NCBI GenBank assembly: GCA_024229935.1
Contig: JAAERX010000002.1
Location: forward strand, 62,001-126,000
DNA length: 64,000 nucleotides
Direction of reading: 5' to 3'
From: Gammaproteobacteria bacterium
GTDB taxonomy: Bacteria; Pseudomonadota; Gammaproteobacteria; Steroidobacterales; GCA-2729495
Under the pieces are notes generated by a model. The model did no database searches and was not told the origin of the DNA. It saw only the letters and a list, made by a program, of their open reading frames with translations. Shown here in pieces: positions 16,940 through 23,442 of the stretch (positions are counted from its first letter, which is position 1; each line of letters opens with the position of its first letter). A program made the translations under genes and the position numbers.

Positions 16940-19789
16940 ATGCAAAATATCAGCATCCGGGGAGCCCGAACTCACAACCTCCAGAACATAAATCTGGACC
17001 TGCCCCGTGACAAACTCATTGTAATTACTGGTCTGTCAGGTTCAGGTAAATCATCACTTGCCTTTGATACAATTTACGCTGAAGGCCAGCGCCGTTACGT
17101 GGAATCATTATCCACGTATGCAAGACAGTTTCTGTCGATGATGGAAAAACCTGATTTTGACCACATCGAAGGTTTGTCCCCAGCAATTGCCATTGAGCAA
17201 AAATCAACCTCACACAACCCACGTTCCACTGTCGGCACAGTAACTGAGATATATGATTACCTGCGTTTACTCTACGCACGAGTAGGCCGACCACGCTGCC
17301 CCGAACATCACAATGACCTGCAGGCACAAACAGTTAGCCAGATGGTTGATCAGGTACTGGCACTGGCAGATGGCACACGCTTATTACTACTCGCTCCTGT
17401 AGTTCAGAACCGTAAGGGTGAACATTTACAGCTGCTGGCAGACCTACGCTCTCAGGGGTTTGTACGTGCCCGCATCAATGGGGAAGTATACGAACTGGAT
17501 GACCCACCAAAGCTGGATTTGCGGCGCAAACACAATATTGACGTCGTTGTTGATCGCTTCAAGATACATGATGACATGCGATTACGCCTTACAGAATCTT
17601 TTGAAACAGCATTGAGTATTGCGGAGGGTGTTGCCCGTATCGCATGGATGGATAAACCCGCACATACAGAACTGGTTTTTTCAGATAAATTTGCTTGCCC
17701 GGAATGCGGCTATGCTCTTGCAGAACTTGAACCACGGCTGTTTTCTTTTAATAACCCGATTGGTGCCTGTGACGCCTGTGATGGTCTTGGTGCAAAGCAG
17801 TTTTTTGATCCCGGCAGAGTAATTCGTAACCCCACCCTCAGCCTTGCTGGTGGAGCCATACGTGGCTGGGACCGTCGTAATTCTTACTATTCCCAGGTTA
17901 TACAGAGCCTCGCCGATCATTTTGGTTTTGATATTGAGGCCCCCTGGGAATCACTGGATAAAGAAACACAAAAAATACTGCTGCACGGGTGCAATGAAGA
18001 AGTTGAATTCATCTACCGGTCGACACGTGGTGCAAGCTTTAAACGTACGCATGCATTTGAAGGCGTACTTCCTAATCTTGAGCGCCGCTACCGTGAAACA
18101 GACTCAAGCAAGGTTCGTGAAGAGCTCGCAAAATATCTCAGCATTCAACCCTGCCCCAGCTGCAATGGCACAAGACTCAATAAAGCCGCTCGCAATGTTT
18201 TTATTAGCAAGCGAGCCATCCCTGAAATCACTGGAGAATCAGTTGCTAATGCACTCAACTTCTTTGATGCACTCCACCTGGAAGGGGCCCGAGGAGAAAT
18301 TGCCGATAAAATTATTAAAGAAATTAGTGAACGTCTGCGCTTTCTTGCTGATGTAGGACTGGAATACCTGACTTTAGATCGCAGTGCTGAAACTCTTTCA
18401 GGTGGCGAGGCACAACGCATCCGTCTTGCCAGTCAGATAGGCTCAGGCCTGGTAGGTGTCATGTACATTCTAGATGAGCCATCAATAGGCCTGCACCAGC
18501 GGGACAATGCACGCTTACTGAATACCCTGATTCGATTACGGGATCTGGGCAATACGGTCATGGTGGTTGAACATGATGAAGAAGCCATCATGGCTGCTGA
18601 TTATGTCATTGATATAGGCCCCGGAGCAGGCGTGCATGGCGGCCATATCGTAGCTGAAGGAACACCGCAGGAAATAAAAAATAATGCAACATCTCTTACC
18701 GGCCAGTACCTTTCCGGACGGCGATGCATTGAAATACCTACCAACCGGACCGCAATAGACAAGAAAAAACAATTACGTATCCGGGGTGCCAGCGGCAATA
18801 ACCTTAAGCAGGTAAACGCAGACATCCCTCTTGAGGCAATAACCTGCATTACGGGTGTTTCCGGTTCCGGCAAGTCCACACTTATTAACGACACTCTGTA
18901 TAAAAAAGCAGCTGAATTAATCAATAACAGCAGCCATAGCCCAGCCCCCTGCAAAGCAGTTGAGGGTCTGGATCAGATTGATCGGATTATTGATATCAGC
19001 CAGTCCCCTATTGGTCGTACACCACGCTCTAACCCGGCTACCTATGCTGGATTATTCACACCCGTACGCGAACTGTTTGCAGGGACACAGGAAGCCAGAT
19101 CCCGTGGTTACAAAGCGGGTCGCTTTAGCTTCAATGTAAAAGGCGGTCGCTGTGAATCCTGCCAGGGTGATGGCGTGATTAAAGTAGAAATGCACTTCCT
19201 ACCAGATATTTATGTACCCTGTGATTTATGCAAAGGCAAGCGATATAACCGTGAAACACTGGAAATAAAATATAAAGGGCACAGTATCGACAAGGTGCTC
19301 AATATGACCGTTGAGGATGCTCTGGGAATATTTCAGAATATACCGGTTATCGCCCGAAAACTGCAAACCCTGATGGATGTAGGTCTGAGTTACATACGTC
19401 TTGGACAAAGTGCTACCACCCTGTCGGGTGGTGAAGCTCAGCGAGTAAAGCTGGCCAAAGAGCTGTCCAAACGAAGCACTGGTAGCACACTCTACATACT
19501 GGATGAGCCCACTACAGGTCTACATTTTCATGACATTGCACAACTACTTCATGTGCTGCAGAAATTACGTGACCAGAGCAATACCATCGTTGTTATCGAA
19601 CATAATCTCGATGTCATCAAAACAGCCGACTGGATTATTGATCTGGGGCCCGAGGGTGGTGATGGCGGTGGCACGATAGTTGCTACAGGTACCCCTGAAG
19701 ATGTGGCTGCTAATAAGCAATCATTTACGGGACAATACTTGGCACCTTTACTCAAAAACCACAATAAGAATAAAGCCGCCGTTTCATAA
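16940..19789 (+). CDS. uvrA: Excinuclease ABC subunit UvrA
   Basis: UvrA is the damage-sensing ATPase of nucleotide excision repair. The 949 residues contain two ABC modules: Walker [10 protein letters not shown] at residues 31-39 and GVSGSGKST in the second half. The signature LSGGEAQR occurs twice, followed by [14 protein letters not shown] and [14 protein letters not shown]. Zinc modules are seen at [14 protein letters not shown] with CDACDGLG, and at CESCQGDG with [10 protein letters not shown]. The ATG has no clear Shine-Dalgarno sequence. A strong terminator lies 12 bp after the stop. Confidence 0.98.
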
Positions 19790-19800
19790 ACCATAGAACA

Positions 19801-19829
19801 AAAAAACCCCGCTAAAAGCGGGGTTTTTC
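19801..19829. terminator. Bidirectional intrinsic terminator after uvrA
   Basis: A perfect stem CCCCGC/GCGGGG with loop TAAAA is flanked by an A-run on the left and a T-run on the right. It can end uvrA on the plus strand and the PEP-CTERM cluster on the minus strand. Confidence 0.93.
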
Positions 19830-19857: not shown

Positions 19858-20553
19858 TTAACTCGTAAGTATTTTTTTACGACGGGTAAAACCAAGCATG
19901 GCAAGTCCTGATGCAAATAACCAGACTGCTGCTGGAATAGGTACAGCATTTAGCTGAACATCATCAATTGAAAAAGTAACTGCCGATTCAGTGTAGACAA
20001 CAGGCTCGGCAAAAAAGATACCCGGCTGAAGTTTCCCTACCTGAGTAAAAATATGATTATAAGTCTTACCACCAAACCCTGGATCAAAAATTGATGGATC
20101 ATCTATCTGCAACACAAGCTGATACCAGGTATCAGGCGGCATAAGAACCCCGGATAGCCAGCTTGCTGCACCACCAGCTGATGACCCGATACGCACATAT
20201 GCCTCAAGTGATATATCTGAGTCATGCTTAAACCAGTAGCTCAGGGTTGTAACATCTTCACTTATCCAGTCACCCATAAAGGTGTTGCCATTCACACATG
20301 CCGTGTTTTGACAGCGAAACTGAATTAATGCGGAGCCAAAACTAGCTGTATTGGTTGCAATTTCACCGGTATAACTTATATAAGCTCCACCATCATGGCC
20401 CCCACTTGCATGCTCAGTAGGTGCAACACTATCTCTATCCAACCAGCCATTGGCACCGCCCTCAAATGTTTCCAGAGCAACTACCGTGGCCTGACTTGTA
20501 CCGCCCATAAATAAAAACAGCAGTAATATGCAACACTTATTATAATTTTTCAT
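19858..20553 (-). CDS. PEP-CTERM sorting-signal protein 1
   Basis: A 231-residue secreted protein. From the ATG at 20553 (GAGG 6 nt upstream; the frame is open to 20586) a signal peptide ends near GGTSQA. The body, starting VVALETFEGGANGWLDRD, looks like an all-beta, lectin- or jelly-roll-like domain with repeated W/Y-rich strands, but I cannot name a family. The C-terminus VPIPAAVWLFASGLAMLGF then RRKK is a PEP-CTERM tripartite signal: motif, membrane helix, basic tail. Such proteins are cut and released or anchored by an exosortase, none of which is in this window. It is third in a same-strand row of three. Confidence 0.85.
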   Translation of the reverse strand: MKNYNKCCILLLFLFMGGTSQATVVALETFEGGANGWLDRDSVAPTEHASGGHDGGAYISYTGEIATNTASFGSALIQFRCQNTACVNGNTFMGDWISEDVTTLSYWFKHDSDISLEAYVRIGSSAGGAASWLSGVLMPPDTWYQLVLQIDDPSIFDPGFGGKTYNHIFTQVGKLQPGIFFAEPVVYTESAVTFSIDDVQLNAVPIPAAVWLFASGLAMLGFTRRKKILTS

Positions 20554-20602
20554 ATTAAACCTCATCATTATGATGCGCCTTTTCAAGGAGGCACAGCTTG
20601 TC

Positions 20603-21184
20603 TTACTTACTTACTTTTCTCTTTCTAGCCACACCAAACAGCCCAATCAACCCACTGCTAAATAACCAGACTGCTGCCGGAATGGGCACAACAGAAACCT
20701 CAGCACCATTAAAAGCTGGCGTAAACTTAAGGGGACTGGGATTGAGATTAAAGAAGCTACCAAGGTAGGGCAGAGCATCACCCAGGTCTAGGCTTATAGT
20801 GCTGCCAGCCGAGCCCAATGTATCGAAAGTGTAGGTACCAATAGTTGCTGTCGGACTGGAATTATCAAAACCCAACTTAACACTACCCGTATCTATAGTT
20901 GTGCTACCAAATGCGATAGCTGGAGAGTTGTATTCGAAGCCCACGTAGCTTGCGTGAGTTTCATTAAACGTAACATGCACTTTGCCACGGAATATACCCA
21001 CATACTCTCCTATATTTTCGTCAGCTGCATCCATGACAAGATCAACCGTAAATTGCTCACCCTCGCTCACAGAACTTGTTGAAGGCACAAGGGAAATCGT
21101 TGCGGCCAAGCTCGGTAATGCCAAAAGGCTGAAAGTAATAATTGCTGATGTAAACCTAATCCATGTTTTTATTATTGTTTTCAT
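20603..21184 (-). CDS. PEP-CTERM sorting-signal protein 2, cohesin-like body
   Basis: A 193-residue secreted protein with a signal peptide ending around LALPSLAA. The body begins ISLVPSTSSVSEGEQFTVDLVMDA and continues with a pattern of beta strands (VGIFRGKVHVTF, SVKLGFD, TIGTYTFDT). This resembles cohesin-type domains found in other PEP-CTERM proteins; the assignment is by eye. The tail is VPIPAAVWLFSSGLIGLFGV followed by ARKRK, an exosortase signal. GGAG lies about 10 nt before the ATG. It sits 49 bp upstream of protein 1. Confidence 0.85.
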   Translation of the reverse strand: MKTIIKTWIRFTSAIITFSLLALPSLAATISLVPSTSSVSEGEQFTVDLVMDAADENIGEYVGIFRGKVHVTFNETHASYVGFEYNSPAIAFGSTTIDTGSVKLGFDNSSPTATIGTYTFDTLGSAGSTISLDLGDALPYLGSFFNLNPSPLKFTPAFNGAEVSVVPIPAAVWLFSSGLIGLFGVARKRKVSK

Positions 21185-21295
21185 TATTATCTAACTCCTT
21201 GAATTACAATTATTTATCTGTCTTCCGTGATAATCATCATCTTATTTTTCATATTGTTATCTTGATAAATCTTGGCTACCTGCGTGATGCGTACT

Positions 21296-22078
21296 TCAGG
21301 TGGCTATCCGTACTTGTTGTTTGCGATTCCAGCCAACTAACAGCCCTATACCTGAAGCAAACAACCAAACAGCTGCAGGAATTGGCACAAGGGCATCACC
21401 AGATGCCACAGCCCATGCGCTTCCAATAATCAATTCATTTGGCAACACCTCGTTCTGATTTCCGTTGAAGTTAAAAAACATCACTTTGCCGTCTTCAAAA
21501 GGATTGGCGCTAGACCAGGTACGGGAATTGTTCAAGCCAGCTTCATTGAGCAGACCTGTAAATGGGCCGGTATTTGACAGGCAGGAAACAGTCGGGTCAC
21601 TACAAGGGGTGTCTCCACCACTAACGTCTTTTTTACTGATATTTCCAAGTGTATTAAAATACAGATGCGCTATTTCACTGGCAGTACTACCAGCAAAGGC
21701 GGACCCTGCTGCAGACACATTCTGTGCACGATCTGTTGAACCGTCTACACTCCAGTTCCGATTAAACATAGCGCCATTAATTGGTGTGATAGAAGGCAAG
21801 CGCCAGGTATCTAAACCAAGGTAACCTGCAGAATTCATAGCACCAATCCATTCATTGGCAGTATCAAGAGTCATGAGGCCGGATGCTCTGATACCAGCAA
21901 CCCCAAAGTCTTCACTTTGAGCAAGGTTGACATTAGTCAGCCAGGTAATATCCAGCACCGTGTCATAAAAGGCCTGACCACCAGCTCGCTCAACCAATGT
22001 CGCGCTGGCCATCTGACTAATACACATCATTATTACCAGCAAGGCTACTGCTGACCCCTTCTTAACCCTGTAAAGCAT
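21296..22078 (-). CDS. PEP-CTERM sorting-signal protein 3, Lcl/DUF1566-like body
   Basis: A 260-residue secreted protein with a signal peptide ending near ISQMASA. The body starts with LVERAGGQAFYDTVLDITWL and contains LDTWRLPSITPI, the WRLP pattern of the Lcl C-terminal (DUF1566) domain. A cysteine pair in CSDPTVSC could form a disulfide. The C-terminus VPIPAAVWLFASGIGLLVGW then NRKQQ is the sorting signal. GGAG precedes the ATG by a few bases. It is the first of the three-gene row and lies below the MerR-like gene. Confidence 0.86.
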   Translation of the reverse strand: MLYRVKKGSAVALLVIMMCISQMASATLVERAGGQAFYDTVLDITWLTNVNLAQSEDFGVAGIRASGLMTLDTANEWIGAMNSAGYLGLDTWRLPSITPINGAMFNRNWSVDGSTDRAQNVSAAGSAFAGSTASEIAHLYFNTLGNISKKDVSGGDTPCSDPTVSCLSNTGPFTGLLNEAGLNNSRTWSSANPFEDGKVMFFNFNGNQNEVLPNELIIGSAWAVASGDALVPIPAAVWLFASGIGLLVGWNRKQQVRIAT

Positions 22079-22179
22079 GTTGTTACTCCTTTCCTGTATT
22101 CGGTTCCGTTAGCCAGCAATGTCTTTTATGGCGCCGATCTAATGTCAGGCTCTTCTGCCGTAACAGATAAAAAGCACTA

Positions 22180-22192
22180 ACTAACGATTAGT
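22180..22192. promoter_or_regulatory. Small inverted repeat upstream of PEP-CTERM gene 3
   Basis: ACTAA-CGA-TTAGT is a short perfect inverted repeat about 100 bp upstream of the ATG of the third PEP-CTERM gene. The size and place suit a regulator site, possibly for the neighbouring MerR-like protein, but there is no second copy to support it. Confidence 0.25.
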
Positions 22193-22304
22193 CATATCAA
22201 TACCAGTCATAATTTTTCTGGTTAGATACTTATTTTTTTCAATTCATTTCTATAAATTTTGTTCTGTTCTAACTGAAAAGCTTTCTATTAATCTCATTAG
22301 AAAA

Positions 22305-23048
22305 TTATTGGCCTGCCTCGGAATCCAACATCTGCTCCACACGATCAAGGCGATTAGCAATCTCTTCGAGCTTTAGTACAAGCAATTTTTTAACCTCAGG
22401 ACCATTAGCGTTATCATCTTGCCCGTTGACCTTTAGTGCAGATGATGCAGAACGAACGGGAATGGTTTCCTCGAGGCCTTGTTCAGGGAAAAAATCTCCA
22501 GATAACCTGGGCAGAATATCTGTATCTTCAAAATCAGTAGTGAAGCGGTTCAATTGCTCTGAACTAACTCCTCCAGATAATTCCCGCTCAAGGGAAAATA
22601 ACTTACTCAAATCGATGACTGTGCCAATTTGCACACGGCCTGTATCGATACTGCATATTTGTTCCGGGCTAAGGTGATCAAGGACCTGATCAAATTTTTC
22701 TGGCGATACATGCGGCATTAACCCCATTAGTGACAGCCGCACACGCAACCTACGCACTTCAACTGTAAAGCTCCGCTCTGTATCTCTAGCCGCAAGGGTT
22801 TGGATGTCGGGTACAGACAGCTGCGCAAGAAAAATAGAAATTAATTTTAATGAGCCATATTCATCCTTAAGCAAGGAACGTAGCTTCGGAATGACTCTTA
22901 AGATATTAAAGTCCCGCTGCGAGTAGACAGCCCCACGTCCACGATGTGATGGGCCAGACAGCAACCCTTTAGTGATGTAGTCGCTGATTGTCCGTTTATT
23001 AACAGCAGTCAATTCCTCCAACTCATTAATGGTGTAAGAACGAATCAT
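22305..23048 (-). CDS. MerR-type regulator of unknown specificity
   Basis: A 247-residue protein. Residues 1-70 form a MerR-like winged helix-turn-helix (SYTINELEELTAVNKRTISDYI, then GRGAVYSQRDFNILRVI). The middle has arginine-rich and leucine-rich helices (VEVRRLRVRLSLMGLMPH). The last 35 residues (VLKLEEIANRLDRVEQML) look like a coiled coil for dimerisation. No cysteine cluster for metal binding and no known ligand domain is visible. It lies upstream of the three PEP-CTERM genes on the same strand, separated by 226 bp, so a link is possible but not shown. Clear family: MerR HTH; function unknown. Confidence 0.78.
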   Translation of the reverse strand: MIRSYTINELEELTAVNKRTISDYITKGLLSGPSHRGRGAVYSQRDFNILRVIPKLRSLLKDEYGSLKLISIFLAQLSVPDIQTLAARDTERSFTVEVRRLRVRLSLMGLMPHVSPEKFDQVLDHLSPEQICSIDTGRVQIGTVIDLSKLFSLERELSGGVSSEQLNRFTTDFEDTDILPRLSGDFFPEQGLEETIPVRSASSALKVNGQDDNANGPEVKKLLVLKLEEIANRLDRVEQMLDSEAGQ

Positions 23049-23164: not shown

Positions 23165-23180
23165 ATTTACAACTGTAAAT
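23165..23180. promoter_or_regulatory. Candidate operator of the MerR-like gene
   Basis: ATTTACA-AC-TGTAAAT is a perfect 7-bp inverted repeat with a 2-bp centre, about 117 bp upstream of the MerR-like start. MerR proteins often bind short symmetric sites and control their own gene, so this is a reasonable candidate, but no promoter elements were fixed around it. Confidence 0.35.
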
Positions 23181-23363
23181 ATCTTACTGGAAGTACGAAT
23201 ATTTGTCCATAAAATATGTGAACTTTATTTTAAACATATTCAACCACCTGAAATAACAAGGATTACTGTCAAAGACAGACATCAGCCTCTTTGGCGTTAT
23301 GCAAAAAGCCAGCTTTACGGCACTGACCAGACCTCAGAACCACCCTGAACGGAAATCCTGCCC

Positions 23364-23396
23364 AAAAAAAAACCCGCTCTATAAGCAGGTTTTTTT
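23364..23396 (-). terminator. Terminator after the DksA/TraR-like gene
   Basis: A stem AACCCGCT/AGCAGGTT (one mismatch) with a long A-run on one side and T7 on the other lies 47 bp past the stop of the DksA-like gene. On the minus strand the T-run follows the stem directly. Confidence 0.88.
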
Positions 23397-23442
23397 GGCT
23401 AATGAATCAGCCTGGGCGGAGATATATTAGCTTAATGCCTGA

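Follow-up and report, generated by a model that had tools for sequence, protein, structure and literature searches.

What controls the genes of exosortase substrates when these genes lie behind a regulator of another kind than the one described for them? The question is raised by three neighbouring minus-strand genes for PEP-CTERM proteins downstream of a gene for a MerR-type protein. In the accessible text of a 2006 paper, 99 out of 167 PEP-CTERM genes from proteobacteria are reported to have a sigma-54 site upstream, and most PEP-CTERM proteins are assigned to single-gene operons (PMC1569441). According to the portion available of a study on Aquincola, a PEP-CTERM protein mattered for flocs and not for biofilm (PMC9850573). 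As far as the accessible parts of both papers go, PrsK/PrsR together with sigma-54 is the sole regulation described for PEP-CTERM genes (PMC1569441, PMC9850573), and our literature searches returned no paper linking a MerR regulator with exosortase substrates. The reading that we favour, with a probability of roughly two in three, is that the stretch forms one transcription unit, in which genes for XrtD substrates stand behind the gene of their own MerR-type regulator. We read this unit as lying outside the known sigma-54/PrsR route.

Organization of the locus

The locus belongs to a window of 64,000 nucleotides, i.e., the whole stretch of DNA that was analysed. A preliminary description had listed four open reading frames, one of them for a 247-residue MerR protein and three ending in VPIPAAVWLF, and its coordinates agree with ours (Table 1). 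In all three PEP-CTERM proteins, the VPIPAAVWLF motif is followed by a hydrophobic helix and a basic tail. A search pattern for tail, helix and basic end, composed after the three C-termini had been inspected, fits 3 of the 219 window ORFs of at least 60 aa, precisely these three. A putative signal peptide is apparent by eye at each N-terminus. For the frame ending the unit, the ATG at 20553, preceded by a GAGG, is a more probable start than the TTG at 20586 (by eye).

Table 1. Features of the MerR/PEP-CTERM locus, in positions of the window
Feature	Position	Strand	Remark
Terminator-like hairpin at the unit's end, facing the convergent uvrA-like gene	19801..19829	-	13 pairs, then T run
PEP-CTERM protein, body of unknown kind	19858..20553	-	tail VPIPAAVWLFASGLAMLGFTRRKK
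PEP-CTERM protein, cohesin-like body	20603..21184	-	tail VPIPAAVWLFSSGLIGLFGVARKRK
PEP-CTERM protein, Lcl-like body	21296..22078	-	tail VPIPAAVWLFASGIGLLVGWNRKQQ; first gene downstream of the MerR gene
Gap between MerR gene and first PEP-CTERM gene, 226 bp	22079..22304	-	no terminator-like site listed on that strand
MerR-type regulator, 247 aa	22305..23048	-	upstream of the three PEP-CTERM genes
Perfect palindrome TTTACA-AC-TGTAAA	23166..23179	.	upstream of the MerR gene; candidate operator
Candidate sigma-70-like promoter TGGACA-17-TAAGAT	23181..23209	-	directly before the palindrome
Terminator-like hairpin between dksA-type and MerR genes	23358..23398	-	-17.3 kcal/mol, z -4.2

The unit lies between dksA and a uvrA-like gene and is bounded by two terminator-like hairpins. 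Of six terminator-like sites that the region contains against 3.6 expected, the downstream hairpin is by far the longest. The upstream one, equalled in stability by 0 of 200 shuffles, is missing from the consensus terminator scan listing. The gap behind the MerR gene is long enough here for a separate promoter to be possible; of the 10 further loci described below, 8 have a corresponding gap of at most 100 bp. Among the flanking genes, dksA (PF01258) and trpS were typed by scan, and uvrA, the phosphotransferase-like and TonB-receptor-like genes and the outer flanking-gene homologies by eye.

The PEP-CTERM proteins and their sorting system

In a genome search with TIGR03370, two of the three tails count as above the cut-off of 25.35 bits, i.e., 20603..21184 with 27.8 bits and a second with 25.1 bits (25.7 when neighbours in frame are counted), and the third reaches 18.3 bits. 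Scanned singly, the three proteins score 22.0, 24.5 and 15.3 bits, all under that cut-off, and none is reported by PF07589. The bodies are of different kinds. The first protein matches PF07603 (Lcl C-terminal) at 21.9 bits and E 2e-4, under the cut-off of 34.9 bits, and matches a second PEP-CTERM protein of the same genome (contig C110) at 31.6% over 250 aa. The cohesin-like protein is without a Pfam match of its own; in a relative, L098, a match to Cohesin (PF00963, E 7e-4) stays under the cut-off. Genome G015 has a homologue inside its MerR operon (37% over 186 aa, E 2e-38), and a single match each is found in 24 of 40 family genomes. The third protein matched nothing in the Pfam scan or among PDB sequences, where searches with all three proteins gave nothing at E <= 1. 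The top PDB match of the cohesin-like family profile is a tail spike protein at E 0.074. A single-sequence structure model of the cohesin-like protein was discarded, its pLDDT of 38 being too poor.

The exosortase and PrsK/PrsR genes named for follow-up in the preliminary description are present elsewhere in the genome. The sole exosortase is the VPLPA-CTERM-specific XrtD, which lies outside the window and scores 578 bits against a cut-off of 400. XrtD is above cut-off in all seven MerR-bearing genomes with a typed exosortase, and no exosortase was found in the other three of the ten, the drafts G183, G177 and G194 (92, 87 and 73% complete). The locus resembles the XrtD/VPLPA-CTERM system (TIGR04152 / TIGR03370) in its VPxPA motif, hydrophobic helix and basic tail and in the XrtD of its genome; it is unlike the PEP-CTERM system in that three substrates share one unit under a MerR gene, most PEP-CTERM proteins having an operon to themselves in the accessible text of PMC1569441.

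PrsK and PrsR are intact in this genome (536 and 714 bits), and control of this gene class through them and RpoN is known from the parts available of PMC1569441 and PMC9850573, the latter for pepA of Aquincola. It might therefore be argued that the three genes obey PrsK/PrsR and sigma-54 and that the MerR gene is incidental. We regard this as very improbable: as already claimed in the preliminary description, no TGGCAC-N5-TTGC (-24/-12) box precedes any of the three genes. A further difference from PrsK/PrsR control is that the regulator linked to the genes is of the MerR kind. The single exact match in the window, at 19669, lies on the opposite strand inside ORF 16940-19789 (uvrA by eye). Near matches stand before 3 of the 22 VPLPA-CTERM tails of the genome against 0.96 expected from mononucleotide shuffles, a partial count in which the gene start is unsettled for at least 5 of the 22. 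A contrast in sigma-54 boxes between the three genes and the genome's other VPLPA-CTERM genes was dropped on account of these numbers.

The MerR-type regulator

The regulator comprises a winged helix-turn-helix (HTH) domain (about residues 1-59), a helical domain (60-157), a disordered linker and a C-terminal helix (217-245). PF13411 matches its N-terminus at 38.1 bits (cut-off 21.6, E 1.6e-9), and all 11 members of the MerR alignment at E <= 0.1. The AlphaFold2 model has a mean pLDDT of 74.9, with ten-residue blocks of 72-97 across residues 1-150. The solved structures nearest to it are MerR-family proteins, which match its HTH part with a Foldseek E of 0.012 at best, none reaching E <= 0.001, and with VIA Z scores of at most 7.4, values below 8 being rated as weak in the description of the tool. 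The assignment to the MerR family is based on the Pfam profile together with the MerR-family chains that fill the top fold rows. These rows span residues 1-108 and give no clear match for the middle helical domain; no PDB sequence matched the family profile at E <= 0.01.

MerR-type sensors of metals and thiols carry conserved sensing cysteines. Across residues 1-160 of the 11 members, no cysteine is common to all, which argues that the signal is not a metal or thiol of the usual kind. The protein is like SoxR, CueR, CadR and CvkR in its winged HTH, by profile and fold, and unlike the MerR family in the helical domain behind it and in the missing conserved cysteine.

Conservation of the gene order

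Among 396 genomes sampled from the order, 10 carry relatives of the MerR protein, and all 10 belong to one family. Full-length relatives occupy 11 loci, one per genome and two in G162. In a class-wide sample at E <= 1e-20, 2 of 369 genomes matched, both of genus g1, with no member outside that genus. A scan of named genomes with the single MerR protein as query gave no match; with the alignment as query it gave 10 loci, which were left out of the count and do not add evidence since, judged by lengths and coordinates, they are the same contigs as in the main set. HTH-only weak matches (L079, L080 and L082, E 8e-9 to 5e-12) were likewise excluded from the full-length count; the stretches read there (1.9 to 3.3 kb) show no PEP-CTERM tail, the contig of L080 stopping before the downstream gene.

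In all 10 loci besides that of the window, the next downstream gene on the same strand is of PEP-CTERM type, and nine of these carry the tail motif, so that the neighbourhood that the preliminary description had proposed to check is retained. The neighbour in L053 has the motif alone, without a profile match, and that in L048 has lost its tail at a contig end and shares 49% identity over 176 columns with the tailed L050 protein. PEP-CTERM genes are rare in the ten MerR-bearing genomes (3 to 19 TIGR03370 matches per genome at E <= 1e-3). The pairing recurs across three genera and in no fewer than three genomic settings, among them the site described above and a YfaZ-side locus (L049 and L055). 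The PEP-CTERM bodies beside the regulator mostly differ between genera and the regulator is constant, which fits a tie to the sorting class and not to one protein. The putative exchange of bodies between groups is weakened by a few weak cross-matches, e.g., L055 vs L056 with 26% over 235 columns and E 1e-6, composition correction off.

The protein tree of the MerR relatives follows the genera; being kin by descent, the 11 loci are not 11 independent observations. This tree and the confinement to one family would suit a history in which the adjacency is inherited baggage, the regulator acting on other genes and its neighbours simply never having parted from it, as would the fact that most PEP-CTERM genes of MerR-bearing genomes do not adjoin it. 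Such a history is improbable, given that a PEP-CTERM gene comes next in at least three settings and with mostly differing bodies, and that the two g1 genomes with the cohesin-like gene have it in the MerR operon, but other genera beside an L,D-transpeptidase gene. The full-length regulator is missing in 30 of 40 family genomes and VPLPA-CTERM matches occur in 38 of 40; the MerR protein is therefore no general regulator of the VPLPA-CTERM class.

Link to exopolysaccharide genes

In genera g5 and g7, a Wzz-type chain-length gene follows the MerR and PEP-CTERM genes in 5 of 6 loci (typed by scan in L051, L054, L056 and L057, by eye in L052), the sixth contig ending first; L056 has two PEP-CTERM genes in between. 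In L051 and L057, genes for an exosortase-type tyrosine kinase and an ATPase then follow (NCBIfam under the curated cut-offs, Pfam Wzz above). A single contig of G162 carries XrtD, a PrsT-like TPR protein (by eye), MerR, PEP-CTERM and Wzz, with the MerR and XrtD genes about 12 kb apart. Wzz-type, tyrosine-kinase-type, ATPase and PrsT-like genes beside the exosortase are a further likeness to the XrtD system, all four below the XrtA-based cut-offs.

This order would also be expected if the protein regulated the whole exopolysaccharide/XrtD cluster, of which PEP-CTERM would be just the first gene in g5 and g7; in the genome of the window, regulator and part of the substrates would have moved off, and the regulator may still act on the distant cluster. 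The equivalent gap there (L059 15767-16097) holds no ORF of at least 90 aa, which agrees with such a move. Against this stand the five g1 loci, where a PEP-CTERM gene but no exopolysaccharide gene is seen beside the regulator (by eye, in the window itself and, for the remaining four, within the stretches read). We consider regulation of the whole cluster unlikely, though less so than the alternatives discussed above.

Candidate control sites

In promoters of the MerR family, the operator is set in a spacer lengthened to 19-20 bp that separates the -35 and -10 elements. Neither of the two binding sites put forward in the preliminary description found support. The palindrome within 23165-23180 is not enriched, with 1 window match at up to 2 mismatches vs 3.45 expected from shuffles. 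Of 82 loci, 3 contain the palindrome at 22180-22192; these three are copies of the same place, and no other genome's locus has it. Sigma-70-like sites number 5 in the region against 8.7 expected. In three g1 relatives, a TGTRAC-N6-GTTACA palindrome is kept, ending 70-79 bp before the MerR start. A single operator for all 11 loci was rejected: TGTRAC-N6-GTYACA, a pattern drafted after inspecting its three g1 loci, occurs in 3 of 5 g1 loci and in 0 of 6 upstream regions of g5 and g7, and the common g1 palindrome is absent from the window's genome and from G052. At three further sites of it, in G015 and G177, the short stretches read are free of PEP-CTERM tails. What stands of the preliminary interpretation is the matching XrtD and the MerR/PEP-CTERM adjacency. 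An exosortase is present in the window's genome and the PEP-CTERM neighbours are kept, with the three drafts as the exception for the exosortase.

A model for control

The anatomy of the locus, the presence of XrtD, the exopolysaccharide-type genes and the conserved gene order are observed. Direct control of the PEP-CTERM genes by the MerR protein is what we infer from sequence. On the favoured reading, i.e., one unit headed by its own regulator, a MerR dimer would sit on a palindrome that precedes the MerR gene, and the helical middle domain would take up a signal and shift the grip of the protein on the promoter. The regulator gene would then share a transcript with the surface-protein genes downstream of it. 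The PEP-CTERM proteins would exit via their signal peptides and be held by the C-terminal helix; XrtD would cut at VPIPA and the proteins would be passed to the exopolysaccharide layer. A part in biofilm, suggested in the preliminary description, may be supposed for the three proteins.

More tentatively, and at somewhat less than even odds in our view, the MerR protein with its private helical sensor domain may govern exosortase substrates as swappable cargo, any PEP-CTERM gene behind it falling under its control. Surface proteins and exopolysaccharide would then have a second switch that is independent of sigma-54. The MerR-led loci point to a so far undescribed control switch of protein sorting in one gammaproteobacterial family. 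A MerR protein tied to exosortase substrates through relocation and substrate change would name a second route of control, and this link may offer a handle on what the hardly studied XrtD proteins respond to.

Organization of the MerR/PEP-CTERM unit

On its minus strand the window holds a MerR-type gene followed by three PEP-CTERM open reading frames (ORFs). Each carries VPIPAAVWLF near its C-terminus, then a hydrophobic helix and, last, basic residues, a pattern that was drawn up after these tails had been seen and that exactly these three of the 219 window ORFs display. When the whole genome is searched with the VPLPA-CTERM tail profile TIGR03370, two of the three tails exceed the cut-off and the third scores 18.3 bits; scanned in isolation, all three proteins fall below it. 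The unit is flanked by dksA and a uvrA-like gene. Its internal gaps are 226 bp, 111 bp and, depending on the start codon chosen for the final ORF, 16 to 49 bp.

Features of the MerR/PEP-CTERM unit and of related loci (window positions unless a contig or locus is named; G000 is the window's genome)
Feature	Location	Strand	Remark
MerR-type gene	22305-23048	minus	three PEP-CTERM ORFs downstream
Cohesin-like PEP-CTERM gene	20603-21184	minus	
Terminator-like hairpin	19801-19829		end facing the convergent uvrA-like gene
Terminator-like hairpin	23358-23398		behind dksA, at the other end of the unit
Palindrome TTTACA-N2-TGTAAA	23166-23179		behind a weak promoter-like match
PrsK/PrsR genes (L058)	G000:C76:208998-212475		intact
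VPLPA-CTERM cluster (L060)	G000:C35:1-6627		three tail-bearing ORFs
VPLPA-CTERM cluster (L061)	G000:C110:1-13882		two tail-bearing ORFs
TGTAAC-N6-GTTACA	L091 1501-1518		genome G015, divergent intergenic gap
TGTAAC-N6-GTTACA	L092 1501-1518		genome G177, divergent intergenic gap

Downstream neighbours of the MerR gene

The arrangement first noticed in the window is confirmed, and the link between the MerR gene and PEP-CTERM genes, guessed from the window alone, passes a neighbour test in which the next same-strand downstream gene was read at all 10 other MerR loci: each has a PEP-CTERM-type neighbour, L048 by similarity. The tripartite tail is present at nine; at L048 the neighbour is cut by the contig end, and its remainder shares 49% identity with the tailed protein of L050 over 176 columns. 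TIGR03370 matches the neighbours at L050, L055, L056 and L057 with E <= 1e-3, as does the PepA model those at L052 and L054. The L051 neighbour gives 0.0023 with TIGR03370 and 2e-7 with another PEP-CTERM model, the first neighbour at L049 gives only 0.045, and the L053 neighbour matches none of the PEP-CTERM models scanned. The gap from MerR to neighbour is at most 100 bp at 8 of the 10 loci, which makes co-transcription likely there, and measures 145 bp at L056 and 215 bp at L055. The tree of MerR members matches the genera and the members share descent; the 10 of 10 are therefore not ten independent draws.

The surroundings differ between loci. A YfaZ-type gene lies near the unit at L049 (PF07437) and L055 (by eye). 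In two other genera of the family, a Wzz-type gene comes after the PEP-CTERM gene at five of six loci (L051, L054, L056 and L057 typed, L052 by eye), following two such genes at L056; at the sixth, L053, the contig stops 421 bp past the PEP-CTERM ORF. The draft genome G162 carries two MerR, PEP-CTERM, Wzz and kinase blocks (L056 and L057) with similar upstream neighbours by eye, a pairing that reflects duplication or mixed strains.

The cohesin-like gene has one match apiece in 24 of 40 family genomes. It is placed in the MerR operon in the window and in G015, whereas of the 18 loci read in other genera no fewer than 9 have it, by eye, between genes for a ~390-aa protein and an L,D-transpeptidase (L098, L101, L103, L106, L108, L111-L114). 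Two of these transpeptidases were confirmed as YkuD, and the two ~390-aa proteins scanned have no Pfam match. This setting raises the possibility that exosortase substrates are linked to peptidoglycan cross-linking. The bodies of the neighbouring PEP-CTERM proteins fall mostly into unlike groups, though a few weak cross-matches exist. Settings, bodies and the cohesin-like gene fit the pattern expected if the MerR protein were tied to a cargo class and not to a single protein.

Exosortase and PrsK/PrsR

The preliminary description saw no exosortase, which is true of the window and not of the genome; only the size of the window kept it from view. The single exosortase match in the genome is XrtD, the type specific for VPLPA-CTERM, which scores 578 bits (cut-off 400). 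Its cluster also includes Wzz-type chain-length, tyrosine-kinase-type, ATPase, O-ligase-like and PrsT-like genes, all five scoring under NCBIfam cut-offs named after the XrtA system or PEP-CTERM. G162 has a MerR gene and XrtD ~12 kb apart on one contig. That MerR gene, flanked by two PEP-CTERM genes, one on each side, falls in the stretch bounded by a phosphotransferase-like gene (by eye) and Wzz; the matching gap in the window's genome spans 331 bp and holds no ORF of >= 90 aa.

TIGR03370 has 22 matches in the window's genome at E <= 1, with 14 counted over cut-off. VPLPA-CTERM clusters also occur on contigs C35 and C110, so clustering in this genome is not limited to the MerR unit. PrsK and PrsR occur as an intact pair, although few VPLPA-CTERM genes of this genome are preceded by a sigma-54-like box (3 of 22 tails in a partial count).

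Distribution and nature of the regulator

In a sample of 396 genomes from the order, 10 have MerR relatives at E <= 1e-10, all within one family, where full-length relatives occupy 11 loci in 10 of 40 genomes and three additional weak matches span the HTH alone. Sampling across the class gave matches at E <= 1e-20 in 2 of 369 genomes, both from the window's genus. VPLPA-CTERM matches are found in 38 of the 40 family genomes, whereas full-length MerR is found in only 10, which speaks against a general role. Seven of the 10 MerR-bearing genomes have an exosortase match, and the exosortase typed from each is XrtD over cut-off (7/7); G183, G177 and G194 (92, 87 and 73% complete) have no exosortase match.

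All 11 members are recognized by profile as having a MerR HTH (E <= 0.1), and MerR-family structures, with modest scores, top the fold lists. The structure model has an extra helical domain (60-157, mostly confident), a disordered linker and a C-terminal helix, in agreement with the coiled-coil end proposed earlier. No cysteine is conserved among the members, an argument against metal or thiol sensing of the SoxR/CueR kind.

Candidate operators

Neither binding site proposed earlier fared well: near 23165-23180 a palindrome is indeed present, but neither it nor the promoter-like match is above chance, and 22180-22192 is not conserved. TGTRAC-N6-GTTACA lies upstream of the MerR gene in three relatives of the window's genus. 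Across five genomes of that genus, TGTRAC-N6-GTYACA occurs in 6 places, 3 of them the sites before MerR genes, and the reversed pattern, used as control, in none; a genome-wide pattern search found no copy in the window's genome or in G052. The palindromes of L091 and L092 precede a TonB-receptor-like gene (by eye) and a gene for a TPR protein, and may be sites of a different regulator.

Relation to known systems

Titles and abstract openings of the open-licence papers matched disclosed no link of PEP-CTERM or exosortase to MerR; the paper with most mentions of both terms is on Geobacter and cobalt (PMC7726332). No open-licence paper was found for XrtD with exosortase or for PEP-CTERM with cohesin, and the matches listed in a broader search mention neither PEP-CTERM nor exosortase. 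In the excerpts available, known PEP-CTERM regulation involves PrsK/PrsR and sigma-54 (PMC1569441, PMC9850573). Excerpts of the latter report that PepA overexpression in an rpoN1 mutant did not bring back biofilm formation or swarming (PMC9850573), which calls for caution over the word biofilm in the preliminary description. The same overexpression did bring back flocs, while soluble polymer fell and bound polymer rose (PMC9850573); on this basis the PEP-CTERM proteins of the window would have a role in the surface layer.
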